From the IMG/VR virus record IMGVR_UViG_3300008267_001643, positions 1 to 20,976 of that record: a stretch of DNA of 20,976 nucleotides; one strand, written 5' to 3'. Below, piece after piece: positions 3,914 to 6,593 of this stretch (position 1 is the first letter of the stretch; each line of letters begins with the position of its first letter). A program made the position numbers and the translations under genes. Under the pieces are notes generated by a model, which saw only the letters and a program-made list of their open reading frames with translations, made no database searches and had not been told where the DNA came from. The stretch comes from a virus.

Positions 3914-3942
3914 TTGACTTTTACTAAATATTTTGATATAAT
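3914..3942 (+). promoter_or_regulatory. Near-consensus sigma70 promoter before leader RNA and tRNA array
   Basis: The -35 is TTGACT at 3914-3919, the spacer is 17 bp and the -10 is TATAAT at 3937-3942. The start point is expected near 3949. Downstream lie the structured leader and then the tRNA genes. It is among the best promoters in the window. Confidence 0.85.
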
Positions 3943-3948
3943 AACTCT

Positions 3949-4138
3949 ATTATGAAAATTTCAATACGACATTCAAAACTAACACTCTGTTCCATGTTAT
4001 CGACAACATGGCAGGCCGATTATCGTTTACCAAGAAACGAGAATGAAGGCTTTCTTGGAGTTCAAGGGGTTTGTGTATAGAGGTAAATCGTAGTAGGTTA
4101 ACAAACACAAACCCTAGTCTAAAAAACTAGGGTTTTTT
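3949..4138 (+). ncRNA. Structured leader or small RNA upstream of the tRNA array (possible attenuator)
   Basis: About 190 nt lie between a near-consensus promoter and an intrinsic terminator. Visible helices are: CCATGTT/AACATGG at 3992-3998/4005-4011 (loop ATCGAC, extendable by CTG/CAG across a two-base bulge); CCAAGAAA/TTTCTTGG at 4030-4037/4051-4058; and a perfect 10-bp helix 4067-4076/4105-4114. The last shares 4109-4114 with the terminator stem, so the two are mutually exclusive. A weaker pairing 4024-4029/4084-4090 would make a pseudoknot with it. It may be a stable small RNA, or an attenuator deciding read-through into the tRNA/bS21 genes. No known RNA family is recognised. Confidence 0.65.
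3952..4080 (+). CDS. Possible 42-aa leader peptide within the structured RNA
   Basis: An ATG lies nine bases after the -10 box, so the message would be almost leaderless. The 42-codon frame contains Cys at two places, one Trp and several Leu/Ser, and ends at TAG 4078-4080. That stop directly follows the 5' arm (4067-4076) of the helix that excludes the terminator, the geometry expected for a translated attenuator leader. There is no Shine-Dalgarno site and no recognisable protein family. A chance ORF of this length is quite possible in AT-rich DNA. Confidence 0.3.
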   Translation: MKISIRHSKLTLCSMLSTTWQADYRLPRNENEGFLGVQGVCV

Positions 4139-4139
4139 G
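4109..4139 (+). terminator. Intrinsic terminator before the tRNA array
   Basis: A perfect 10-bp stem (AAACCCTAGT at 4109-4118 with ACTAGGGTTT at 4126-4135), a 7-base loop and a T-run (4133-4138). This is the clearest rho-independent terminator in the window. It lies 34 bases before the first tRNA gene, so some read-through or processing seems needed unless the array has another promoter. Confidence 0.85.
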
Positions 4140-4172
4140 TTTTAATGTTCTTTAAAAATTTGAATTGATTTT

Positions 4173-4262
4173 GGAAGTGTGGCAGAGTCCGGTTTATTGC
4201 AACAGTCTTGAAAACTGTCGTGTCGAAAGGCACCGTGAGTTCGAATCTCACCGCTTCCGCCA
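4173..4262 (+). tRNA. tRNA-Ser (TGA)
   Basis: Acceptor GGAAGTG/CGCTTCC, anticodon loop CTTGAAA with TGA at 4209-4211, a long variable arm as expected for serine, T-loop TTCGAAT and encoded CCA. It reads UCA codons, common in AT-rich genes. First gene of the array. Confidence 0.93.
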
Positions 4263-4268
4263 AAATAT

Positions 4269-4346
4269 GCACAAGTACCAGAGTGGTCTAATGGCGTGGT
4301 CTGCAAAACCATCGATTCGTGAGTTCGAATCTCACCTTGTGTTCCA
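4269..4346 (+). tRNA. tRNA-Cys (GCA)
   Basis: Acceptor GCACAAG/CTTGTGT (first pair G-U), anticodon loop CTGCAAA with GCA at 4303-4305, T-arm GTGAG-TTCGAAT-CTCAC, discriminator U as usual for tRNA-Cys, encoded CCA. Confidence 0.93.
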
Positions 4347-4356
4347 AAGTTTTAAT

Positions 4357-4431
4357 GCTCGGGTCGTCTATCGGTTAGGACACCGCCCTTTCACGGCGGG
4401 AAGAGGAGTTCGATTCTCCTTCCGAGTACCA
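4357..4431 (+). tRNA. tRNA-Glu (TTC)
   Basis: Acceptor GCTCGGG/TCCGAGT, anticodon stem CCGCC/GGCGG around loop CTTTCAC with TTC at 4390-4392, T-loop TTCGATT, encoded CCA. All stems pair with only G-U wobbles at the acceptor ends. Confidence 0.93.
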
Positions 4432-4434
4432 ATT

Positions 4435-4520
4435 GGGTTGCGAGAAGCATTGGTGACTTCAGCAGACTGTAAATCTGTCGCCTTATGGCATACGGGGTTC
4501 GATTCCCTGGCAACCCACCA
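4435..4520 (+). tRNA. tRNA-Tyr (GTA)
   Basis: Acceptor GGGTTGC/GCAACCC fully paired, anticodon loop CTGTAAA with GTA at 4469-4471, a long variable arm typical of bacterial tRNA-Tyr, T-loop TTCGATT, discriminator A and encoded CCA. It follows tRNA-Glu after three bases. Confidence 0.93.
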
Positions 4521-4526
4521 AATTTT

Positions 4527-4601
4527 GGCCTGTTGATATAATGGTTATTATGCCTGCCTGTCTAGTAGGACAAAGGAGTTCGATTCTCCTACAGGTCGCC
4601 A
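4527..4601 (+). tRNA. tRNA-Asp (GTC)
   Basis: Acceptor GGCCTGT/ACAGGTC, anticodon stem CCTGC/GTAGG (one G-U) with loop CTGTCTA and GTC at 4560-4562, T-arm GGAG-TTCGATT-CTCC, discriminator G as in tRNA-Asp, encoded CCA. Confidence 0.92.
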
Positions 4602-4649
4602 AATATACCGCAATTAATTTTGTGGAAGATGTATAATAAGTAAATCAAT

Positions 4650-4723
4650 AGCGGGTTAGAGAAACGGTATCTCGGAAGTCTCATAAGCTTCAGTTGACAG
4701 TTCGATTCTGTCACCCGCAACCA
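4650..4723 (+). tRNA. tRNA with CAT anticodon (elongator Met or Ile2)
   Basis: Acceptor AGCGGGT/ACCCGCA pairs except for an A1-A72 mismatch. Anticodon stem GAAGT/GCTTC with loop CTCATAA (CAT at 4682-4684), T-arm GACAG-TTCGATT-CTGTC, discriminator A, encoded CCA. The three G-C pairs of an initiator anticodon stem are missing, so despite the open 1-72 position it is more likely elongator Met, or Ile2 read after lysidine modification. Confidence 0.88.
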
Positions 4724-4752
4724 GTTTAACAAAAAGAAAGGAAAGTTTTAAT

Positions 4753-4983
4753 TTGAGAAGAAATAAAAAGTTTGGATTAAAAGTAGAATGTAGTGATATG
4801 CCCTTTGAAAAAGCACTACGCATTTTTCGAAAGAAAGTTGACAACAGCGGTCTTTTGAAAGAAGTAAAGGAAAGACAAGAGTTTTTAAAACCTAGTACCG
4901 AAAAAAAACTTGCACATGGTCGTGCAGTAAAAAGATGGAAGAAACAGTTGAGAATTCAAACTTTACCAAAATCTTTATATTGA
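4753..4983 (+). CDS. rpsU: Phage-encoded ribosomal protein bS21
   Basis: A 76-residue basic protein within the tRNA array. It starts at TTG 4753, with AAAGGAAAG at 4737-4745; the only later in-frame ATG (4798) would remove the conserved first strand. The order K-V-E-C-S-D-M-P-F-E-K-A-L-R-I-F-R-K-K, then S-G-L-L-K-E-V-K-E-R-Q-E-F, then K-P-S-T-E-K-K, and the basic C-terminal helix ending L-Y matches cellular bS21 over its whole length (about 70 residues). bS21 binds the 30S platform near the anti-Shine-Dalgarno region and helps initiation. Viral bS21 genes are known in several aquatic phages. A viral copy could replace the host protein and bias ribosomes towards phage messages; that effect is inference. 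Its place among tRNAs suggests a translation-support module. Confidence 0.92.
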   Translation: MRRNKKFGLKVECSDMPFEKALRIFRKKVDNSGLLKEVKERQEFLKPSTEKKLAHGRAVKRWKKQLRIQTLPKSLY

Positions 4984-4988
4984 ATTAT

Positions 4989-5064
4989 TGTCTTGTAGCT
5001 CAGTAGGTAGAGCAAATGACTGTTAATCATTGGGTCGCTGGTTCGAGCCCAGCCAAGACAGCCA
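4989..5064 (+). tRNA. tRNA-Asn (GTT)
   Basis: Acceptor TGTCTTG/CAAGACA fully paired, D-arm GCTC/GAGC, anticodon loop CTGTTAA with GTT at 5022-5024, T-loop TTCGAGC, discriminator G and encoded CCA. It begins five bases after the bS21 stop. Confidence 0.93.
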
Positions 5065-5068
5065 AATT

Positions 5069-5142
5069 GCCCCTTTAGTTAAATGGTATAACACTTGATT
5101 TGTAATCATGGATTGGCAGTTCGATTCTGTCAAGGGGCACCA
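5069..5142 (+). tRNA. tRNA-Thr (TGT)
   Basis: Acceptor GCCCCTT/AAGGGGC fully paired, anticodon loop TTTGTAA with TGT at 5101-5103 (the anticodon stem has one U-U mismatch), T-arm GGCAG-TTCGATT-CTGTC, discriminator A, encoded CCA. Reads ACA codons. Confidence 0.9.
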
Positions 5143-5147
5143 AACAA

Positions 5148-5224
<77 letters not shown>

Positions 5225-5226
5225 AT

Positions 5227-5300
5227 ATCTCGGTGGTGTAATGGTAGCATCGCAGTCTCCAAAACTGTTGGTCGGGGTTCGAGTCCCTGCCGGGGTGCCA
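5227..5300 (+). tRNA. tRNA-Trp (CCA)
   Basis: Acceptor ATCTCGG/CCGGGGT (two wobbles), anticodon stem with loop CTCCAAA (CCA at 5259-5261), T-loop TTCGAGT, discriminator G as in tRNA-Trp, encoded CCA. Two bases separate it from tRNA-Pro. Confidence 0.92.
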
Positions 5301-5325
5301 ATAATAAAAAAGAAAGTGGGTAATC

Positions 5326-5796
5326 ATGCGTAAGTTGGACTTAAAGGAAGTTAAATCTTTCATTGAAGCACAAACACCTGAAACCAAGATTTATATTGGT
5401 TGTGATTCAGAGCGTATTAAGATAAACAAAGTTTGGTATGCAGATTACATCACCGCTATTGTTGTTCATATAAATGGTAACAATGGTTGTAAGTTATTCG
5501 GTGAAGTTGTCCGTGAAAGAGATTTTGACCAGAAACAAAACAAACCTAGATATAGATTGATGAATGAAGTTTACAAAGTTTCTGAATTATATTTAAAACT
5601 TGCAGATGTTTTAGTGGACCGTAATGTTGAAGTTCATTTGGATATTAACCCAAACGAAATGCATGGTTCAAATTGTGTGATTCAAGAAGCGATTGGTTAT
5701 ATTCGTGGAACATGTAATGTAATACCTTTAGTTAAACCAGAAGCGTTTGCGGCATCGTATGCAGCAGACAGATTGAAAGGATTAAAAGCAGCATGA
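5326..5796 (+). CDS. RNase H-fold protein, YkuK/DUF458-like
   Basis: A 156-residue protein starting at ATG 5326, with AAAGAAAGTGGG upstream. The strand I-Y-I-G-C-D-S-E-R at residues 22-30 carries an Asp (D27) in the place of the first catalytic Asp of RNase H folds. A second strand reads V-H-L-D-I-N-P-N-E (about 105-113), and E in V-I-Q-E-A-I-G-Y (about 120) could complete an acidic site. This order and length match the YkuK/DUF458 family (RNase H-like), which is frequent in phages. The nuclease role and its substrate are not established. Its place inside the tRNA array invites a guess at RNA or tRNA processing. It ends in an ATGA overlap with the next gene. Confidence 0.8.
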   Translation: MRKLDLKEVKSFIEAQTPETKIYIGCDSERIKINKVWYADYITAIVVHINGNNGCKLFGEVVRERDFDQKQNKPRYRLMNEVYKVSELYLKLADVLVDRNVEVHLDINPNEMHGSNCVIQEAIGYIRGTCNVIPLVKPEAFAASYAADRLKGLKAA

Positions 5797-6047
5797 GTGA
5801 CGGTGGAAAAGGCGATAAGCCAAGACCAATAGTAGATAGAACACAATACGAAGAAAACTTTGAAAGAATTTTTGGTAAAACTAAATCAGAAGCTAAAAGA
5901 CTTGCATCAATGCAAGGAAGTGGACCTGAAAACTATCAAGACTTTCTTTCAACTGAAGATTGTGTTGATAATGCTCTTGAAGAATATAAAAAACAAGCAC
6001 AAGAGTTATGGAATGATTCTTGCACAAGCCATAGAAGTAAAAAATAA
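5793..6047 (+). CDS. Small conserved phage protein (GGKGDKPRP type)
   Basis: An 84-residue protein whose ATG overlaps the upstream stop (ATGA), so it is probably translationally coupled to the RNase H-fold protein. The N-terminus G-G-K-G-D-K-P-R-P-I is a common start of small phage proteins of unknown function, followed by an F-E-R-I-F-G-K motif. The second half is acidic and helical. No membrane segment is present; two Cys residues lie in the C-terminal half. Another frame inside it (from 5860) lacks such features and is ignored. Function unknown. Confidence 0.75.
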   Translation: MSDGGKGDKPRPIVDRTQYEENFERIFGKTKSEAKRLASMQGSGPENYQDFLSTEDCVDNALEEYKKQAQELWNDSCTSHRSKK

Positions 6048-6053
6048 TTCAAT

Positions 6054-6127
6054 GCGGGATTAGTTTAATGGTAAAACGAAACCTTGCCAAGGTTTAGTCG
6101 TGAGTTCGATTCTCACATTCCGCTCCA
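6054..6127 (+). tRNA. tRNA-Gly (GCC)
   Basis: Acceptor GCGGGAT/ATTCCGC, anticodon stem AAACC/GGTTT with loop TTGCCAA (GCC at 6086-6088), T-arm GTGAG-TTCGATT-CTCAC, discriminator U, encoded CCA. Confidence 0.93.
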
Positions 6128-6131
6128 ACTT

Positions 6132-6205
6132 GCGGCTGTAGTTTAGTGGTAAAACTGGAGATTTCCAATCTCCTGTCCTGAGTTCGATTCTCAGTAGCCG
6201 CTCCA
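6132..6205 (+). tRNA. tRNA-Gly (TCC)
   Basis: Acceptor GCGGCTG/TAGCCGC, anticodon stem GGAGA/TCTCC with loop TTTCCAA (TCC at 6164-6166), T-loop TTCGATT, discriminator U, encoded CCA. It reads GGA and complements the GCC isoacceptor just upstream. Confidence 0.93.
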
Positions 6206-6211
6206 ATCAAT

Positions 6212-6285
6212 GTTGTTCCTAGTGTAGTGGTCGCACACTTGTCTGTGAAACAAGTAGAGAGGGTTCGATTCCCCGGTTCAACCCA
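6212..6285 (+). tRNA. tRNA-His (GTG), structurally weak
   Basis: Anticodon stem CTTGT/ACAAG is perfect, with loop CTGTGAA (GTG at 6245-6247), and CCA is encoded. The acceptor arm has two U-U mismatches, the outer T-stem pairs fail (GAGGG against CCCCG), and one base seems missing between the T-stem and CCA compared with a normal tRNA. An encoded G-1 opposite C73 is possible. It could be decaying, edited or mis-sequenced. Confidence 0.7.
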
Positions 6286-6343
6286 ATTTTATGTAACTCA
6301 TTATGCACAAAGATATAGTGTTTTGTCTATAATACGATACAAT

Positions 6344-6426
6344 GCGGATGTGGTGAAATAGGTAAACACAGCAGACTTAAAATCTGCCGCTTCGGCTTGG
6401 CGGTTCGATTCCGCCCACCCGCACCA
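6344..6426 (+). tRNA. tRNA-Leu (TAA)
   Basis: Acceptor GCGGATG/CACCCGC with one A-C mismatch, anticodon stem GCAGA/TCTGC with loop CTTAAAA (TAA at 6378-6380), a long variable arm (CGCTTCGGCTT) as expected for leucine, T-loop TTCGATT, discriminator A, encoded CCA. Confidence 0.92.
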
Positions 6427-6431
6427 AACAT

Positions 6432-6510
6432 GCCCCTGTGGACAAATTGGCAAAGTCAACTCTCTCAAAAGGAGTGTTATTTCTCGGTTCAAATCCGAGC
6501 AGAGGTACCA
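6432..6510 (+). tRNA. tRNA-Leu (CAA) with shortened variable arm
   Basis: Acceptor GCCCCTG/CAGAGGT with one C-A mismatch, a Leu-like D-arm, anticodon stem ACTCT/GGAGT with loop CTCAAAA (CAA at 6466-6468), T-arm CTCGG-TTCAAAT-CCGAG, discriminator A, encoded CCA. The variable region is only about 7 nt and cannot form the stem normal for leucine tRNAs. Confidence 0.82.
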
Positions 6511-6517
6511 AAACCAA

Positions 6518-6593
6518 CCGGCTGTGGTCTAATGGATAAGGCAACGCTCTTCTAAAGCGTCCGATGTGGGTTCGATTCCTGCCAGCCGGGCCA
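6518..6593 (+). tRNA. tRNA-Arg (TCT)
   Basis: Acceptor CCGGCTG/CAGCCGG fully paired, anticodon stem ACGCT/AGCGT with loop CTTCTAA (TCT at 6551-6553), T-loop TTCGATT, discriminator G, encoded CCA. It reads AGA, a codon favoured in AT-rich phage genes. Last tRNA of the array. Confidence 0.94.

Follow-up and report, generated by a model that had tools for sequence, protein, structure and literature searches.

A ribosome-mediated transcription attenuator, in which the leader peptide would check off each of the 20 amino acids in turn and the target would be the phage's tRNA array, very probably lies upstream of the tRNA genes in the window, the 20,976-base stretch of DNA analysed here (bases 1-20976 of a 28,293-base IMG/VR virus record). 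The anatomy of the leader, its recurrence, its 20-amino-acid inventory, the covariation of the antiterminator and the mutual exclusivity of the two helices were all computed in the present analysis.

The original prediction had placed a promoter, a 42-codon ORF, a 10-bp helix and a 10-bp terminator ahead of the array, and the coordinates of each were confirmed (Table 1). The promoter ranked top among 17 promoter-like sites within 6 kb. There was no Shine-Dalgarno sequence before the ORF and about 3 nt separated the AUG from the predicted +1, so that translation of the ORF would need a (near-)leaderless mRNA. The antiterminator helix (4067-4076/4105-4114; GGGTTTGTGT/ACACAAACCC) was a perfect 10 bp, with an 11th pair (G4066-T4115) that is a wobble. 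Bases 4109-4114 are common to the antiterminator and the terminator, and the two helices are therefore mutually exclusive, as had been claimed. The fold of the 195-nt leader was better than that of 199 of 200 dinucleotide shuffles (z = -3.0). The first hairpin within the ORF, possibly an RNA polymerase pause hairpin, was retained in the related leaders L082 and L091 with a U-A to C-G change (by eye). No second promoter was seen by eye at 4136-4172 of the window. The motif TGTTCTTTAAAAATTTG is presumed to be a boxA. A ClpP-type protease was encoded in the same phage region (17346-17915).

Table 1. Coordinates of the putative attenuator and of the array downstream of it, in positions of the window.
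Feature	Position	Strand	Remarks
Sigma70-type promoter	3914-3942	+	TTGACT-17-TATAAT, 11/12, extended -10 TG; predicted +1 at about 3949
Leader ORF, 42 codons, (near-)leaderless	3952-4080	+	MKISIRHSKLTLCSMLSTTWQADYRLPRNENEGFLGVQGVCV*; all 20 amino acids included
Hairpin within ORF	3992-4011	+	CCATGTT/AACATGG; from fold and alignment
Second hairpin within ORF	4023-4040	+	TCGTTT/AAACGA; TCGCTT/AAGCGA in L082 (by eye)
Antiterminator 5' arm	4066-4076	+	Occupies last four codons ahead of stop
Antiterminator 3' arm	4105-4115	+	Overlaps 5' arm of terminator
Intrinsic terminator	4109-4143	+	10-bp stem 4109-4118/4126-4135, U tract
rrn-like boxA (presumed)	4146-4162	+	TGTTCTTTAAAAATTTG; between terminator and first tRNA
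Array under putative control	4173-6593	+	16 tRNA genes with bS21, RNase H-like protein and 84-aa ORF
bS21	4753-4983	+	Inside tRNA array
RNase H-like protein	5326-5796	+	Inside tRNA array
84-aa ORF	5793-6047	+	Inside tRNA array

Related loci were collected with the RNase H-like protein, the gene upstream and DNA patterns as queries. Across 216 such loci, a stop codon with an exclusive antiterminator was found ahead of 28 of the 40 terminators that lie near tRNAs and of 1 of 97 elsewhere (p = 1e-18), which speaks against a chance origin of the arrangement. Covariation, which the original prediction had named as a check, was observed as compensatory changes at antiterminator pairs 5-7 (T-A, C-G, G-C) across 30 distinct helices, these having been picked as best-pairing, a choice that favours canonical pairs. 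The modelled probability of the antiterminator in the window was 0.94, rose to 0.99 with a ribosome in mid-ORF, and fell to 0.00 with a footprint at the stop codon, with the terminator staying at 0.98; the proposal that a ribosome at the stop masks the 5' arm was thus borne out in the model. Most leaders modelled behaved likewise (about 0.9-1.0 without a ribosome or with one in mid-ORF; 0.00 with a ribosome at the stop). Since the finished terminator of the window was favoured at equilibrium (0.98), read-through would depend on the antiterminator forming first, and the model without any translation resulted in read-through. In six leaders the arm was farther upstream, 14-33 nt from the stop, where a ribosome at the stop would leave it uncovered. 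Val was restricted to the last codons, under the arm, in several relatives. From this geometry and its modelled behaviour we infer regulation.

The 42-residue leader peptide of the window holds all 20 amino acids, and still has 20 kinds when its first and last five residues are excluded. About 40 further leader peptides, 30-47 residues long and in many cases little alike in sequence, also held all 20, an inventory with a chance of 0.02-2% per peptide depending on length. The list of distinct all-20 leaders ran to about 41, with L180 counted under two start codons; most of them represented each amino acid by one to three codons. This list was partly gathered by diversity, and the unbiased figures are therefore those of a structure-only scan and an array-start test. 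In the structure-only scan (stop codon, exclusive antiterminator, terminator and -10 at the start codon; amino acids ignored), leaders ahead of tRNAs mostly had 18-20 kinds, and fourteen peptides were listed with 20/20 in 38-47 residues (two of them start-codon variants of L012). Further all-20 peptides, 30-33 residues long, came from relaxed scans. Among random windows of phage proteins, all 20 kinds appeared at a rate of 0.2-0.8% for lengths of 37-42 residues and of about 0.02-0.05% for lengths of 31-33 residues. In 26 of the 48 leaders, frame 0 held all 20 kinds; the count for the other five frames was 0-2 of 48.

The array-start test, with no structural condition, looked for a diversity-extreme ORF (p ≤ 0.01) upstream of 91 array starts. 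Such an ORF was present at 36/91 starts compared with 0/91 in the reverse complement and 1/64 farther upstream (Wilcoxon p = 8e-10); roughly half the array starts were without one. Clustering of the peptides at 45% identity gave a combined p = 6e-13 using the worst member of each cluster; at 35% identity, chance similarity of short peptides merged them into a single group, and the combined test was uninformative (p = 0.41, worst member).

Conservation applied to the set of amino acids more than to their order. In the window's family all 13 rows held the full set, against 3.7 on average under column permutation (0/5000), permutation and Fisher values here overstating independence because many homologues are related. 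Under simulated substitutions at the observed number, the joint probability of the full set being kept in four close pairs was 0.0043, with L113 entering two of the four. Between L113 and L117, an Arg codon was lost at one site and Arg kept at another, and Gln, Cys and Asp sit at different positions in L195 and L213. The window and L082 differed by 9 nonsynonymous and 6 synonymous codon changes, and purifying selection on the peptide at the level of sequence was accordingly judged weak and set aside. As far as the sequences tell, relatives alter residues yet preserve the inventory. The ORF and its position were kept among relatives, as the original prediction implied, but the peptide sequence was less conserved than the 20-amino-acid inventory. 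The greater conservation of the inventory argues for a pan-amino-acid attenuator and rules out a simple one-amino-acid attenuator: the proposed attenuator geometry was upheld, and its specificity would be for all 20 amino acids, not for one. A structured small RNA was also considered and rejected; the region folds well, but had no Rfam match, and the inventory in the coding frame is the better account of its conservation.

The amino acids that leaders lack are mostly those without a tRNA downstream. Across 18 leaders, 33 of 43 missing-amino-acid cells were amino acids without a tRNA in the downstream block (missing residue vs. block tRNA: odds ratio 0.12, p = 9e-10, the cells not being independent). 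The exceptions, with an amino acid missing despite its tRNA in the block, were L005, L053, L057, L072, L169, L200 and Xanthomonas phage X1. Where arrays were split, a leader tended to omit the amino acids of tRNAs outside its control. Thus one leader of L037 had no His or Trp and was upstream of the Cys, Asp, Glu, Met and Tyr tRNAs, and the other had no Cys or Asp and was upstream of the remaining tRNAs. In L033 a second, Leu-rich leader of 24 residues (2810-2884), with its own terminator and five Leu codons (CTA, TTA, CTC, TTG, TTA), is placed ahead of tRNA-Leu(UAG) and tRNA-Leu(UAA) only and is, by its sequence, a single-amino-acid version of the same device. In blocks with two isoacceptors, leaders covered both in 222 of 272 cases vs. 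198 under synonymous recoding (0/500).

The same arrangement occurred ahead of tRNA arrays in dozens of uncultured phages. The leader could be aligned in about 16 contigs, where it was placed between the promoter and the tRNAs; in most aligned homologues 0-3 nt lay between the predicted +1 and the start codon, and the spacing from the -10 to the ATG was conserved. Leaders of L109, L180, L206, L245 and L246 carried Shine-Dalgarno-like sequences instead. A weaker form was present in Xanthomonas phage X1 (OQ427096), with a 39-codon ORF of 19 kinds lacking Cys, an exclusive helix of 6 bp, a terminator of 13 bp (at about 135,740) and a boxA, followed by 37 tRNAs. No such leader was found in the tRNA-bearing regions of ten isolates examined (DLP_6, RcXuper, MD18, Astolliot, Va1, D484, EnC15, AsFcp_2, phage 30-1 and T5). 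Searching phage isolates with the peptide by tblastn gave weak matches (E of about 3 or more) among the matches listed, and an alignment-based search for loci with leader peptides was unproductive, conserved stretches being missing. Six matches of the leader-core pattern in bacterial genomes (Peptoniphilus, Paenibacillus, Cohnella and Sedimenticola) were taken as chance because there was no tRNA on the DNA examined. ARAGORN labelled two tRNA genes as Pyl (L130:14675 and L131:6946; Stenotrophomonas phage DLP_6 and phage BUCT-ZZ01), one of which is annotated as a suppressor (CTA) in its record.

A second sigma70-like promoter occurred between the terminator and the first tRNA in L055 (1449-1500), L239, L245, L246, L257 and L259, so that the attenuator is not the sole input there; boxA was usually 3' of this promoter. 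Of 83 TTCTTTAAAAA motifs in the 216 loci, 57 had a same-strand tRNA downstream within 150 nt, and the placement of TTCTTTAAAAA and boxA suggests recruitment of host Nus-factor antitermination for untranslated tRNA arrays. In one phage group a motif like AAGGCAACGCGAGCC was observed immediately 3' of the leader terminator (L042:2380-2440, L052:2490-2530 and L023:520-550).

A prediction was written down ahead of the last scan of new loci. The strict scan yielded one leader only, with 35 residues and 19 kinds, a result weakly consistent with the prediction. A relaxed look found leaders of 19-20 kinds ahead of L239, L245, L246, L257, L259 and L273. Downstream of each was a terminator or a hairpin resembling one, and a complementary arm was seen by eye; all but L273 are among the loci with a second promoter listed above.

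Four other explanations were weighed against these results. A functional small protein, anti-host or ribosome-binding, with a terminator that just ends the transcript, would fit the recognisable core TWQADYRS shared by the window's family, but other families share little of that core and still preserve the 20-amino-acid inventory, and close pairs vary freely at nonsynonymous sites. As it also leaves unexplained both the exclusive antiterminator and the match between missing residues and tRNA blocks, this reading is very unlikely. Much the same low probability attaches to an arrest-peptide attenuator of the TnaC kind, in which a specific nascent chain would stall the ribosome when a ligand is present: an arrest motif would select neither 20 kinds nor isoacceptor coverage, and no C-terminal or internal motif was common across families, even though Trp was present at a similar place in nearly all leaders and GVCV or GFV ends were frequent in one family.

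It is equally hard to sustain that the leader senses initiation or the state of the ribosome, its leaderless ORF being read by altered ribosomes (e.g., in their bS21 content) and the peptide being secondary. Many leaders are indeed leaderless and bS21 is encoded in the window's array; the 20 amino acids are nonetheless not accounted for, and the inventory was the same or nearly so in the five loci with Shine-Dalgarno-like sequences. The coincidence of an inter-operon terminator with a random ORF and helix is scarcely credible, since the strong enrichment, the covariation and the empty opposite-strand control of the array-start test contradict it, although promoter-like sites in the region were no commoner than in shuffles.

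Under the preferred reading, that of an attenuator polling all 20 amino acids, the ribosome would initiate on the (near-)leaderless AUG. With every aminoacyl-tRNA available it would reach the stop and mask 4066-4076, the terminator would form and the array would be off. With any aminoacyl-tRNA scarce it would stall upstream, 4066-4076 would pair with 4105-4115, and this antiterminator would block the terminator, letting RNA polymerase continue into the tRNA/bS21 operon. Translation of the ORF, read-through caused by stalling and the biological trigger are proposals; likely triggers would be loss of host tRNA in infection, tRNA-cleaving defences, or a shortage of amino acids or of charging. The device is probably a virus-borne universal decoding sensor, in which all 20 amino acids would have to be decoded, with both isoacceptor classes favoured, before the tRNA genes are shut off, a near-complete set that would be on (with bS21) only when host decoding fails, and whose split-array versions would be tuned to their own tRNAs. 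Ribosomes free of bS21 might treat leaderless mRNAs differently, and the bS21 of the array might thus close a putative feedback loop. The main quantitative doubt is the small number of codons per amino acid relative to sensitivity: attenuation theory holds that more regulatory codons give greater sensitivity (PMC1183508). Classical attenuators have repeated codons for their amino acid, but the phage leaders often have a single codon for each, and might therefore respond poorly when only one amino acid is short.

The mechanism itself is of a known kind; what looks new, to our knowledge, is the sensing of all 20 amino acids and the link from that sensor to tRNA genes. The original prediction knew of no description of amino-acid attenuator geometry applied to a phage translation module, and no account of the present device was found in the open-access literature on leader peptides, attenuation, phage tRNAs and 'all 20 amino acids'; we know of no earlier leader peptide polling all 20. 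If true, it would be a rare case of selection on the amino-acid set of a peptide and not on its sequence.

The attenuators of amino-acid operons (trp, his, leu, thr and pheA of E. coli and Salmonella) have the same promoter, short leader ORF and exclusive antiterminator and terminator, the same decision by ribosome position and the same stop codon at the 5' arm. They differ in that their leader repeats one amino acid and their target is biosynthesis, whereas the phage leader samples all 20, targets tRNA genes and bS21, is phage-borne and often leaderless, and has an rrn-like boxA downstream. Repeated codons mark the classical single-amino-acid subtype, and here only the Leu leader of L033 is repetitive. 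In multivalent attenuators of the ilvGMEDA type, one leader peptide reports several amino acids; these are few and related, compared with all 20 in the phage leader. The pheST (pheM) attenuator of tRNA-Phe synthetase likewise regulates the translation apparatus and not biosynthesis, but it is cellular, reads one amino acid and targets a synthetase, unlike the phage leader, which targets tRNA genes; its nearest analogue here is the Leu-rich leader before the two tRNA-Leu genes of L033. T-box leaders are also leader RNAs that sense tRNA charging and control a terminator; they bind tRNA directly, whereas the phage leader has a predicted translated ORF, and the T-box covariance model had no match in the Rfam search. 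The ilvGMEDA operon is named in a modelling study of attenuation in which a stop codon inside the 5' arm is proposed to lower basal read-through (PMC1183508). What tRNA genes do for phages has been a matter of debate over decades (PMC10264068). The evasion of tRNA-targeting defences by phage tRNAs (PMC10264068, PMC11555353) likely has the physiological setting proposed here, a shortage of tRNA during infection, with no leader or attenuation mentioned in PMC10264068; if the attenuator operates as proposed, these tRNA arrays would be an emergency supply against tRNA loss, which reporters could test.
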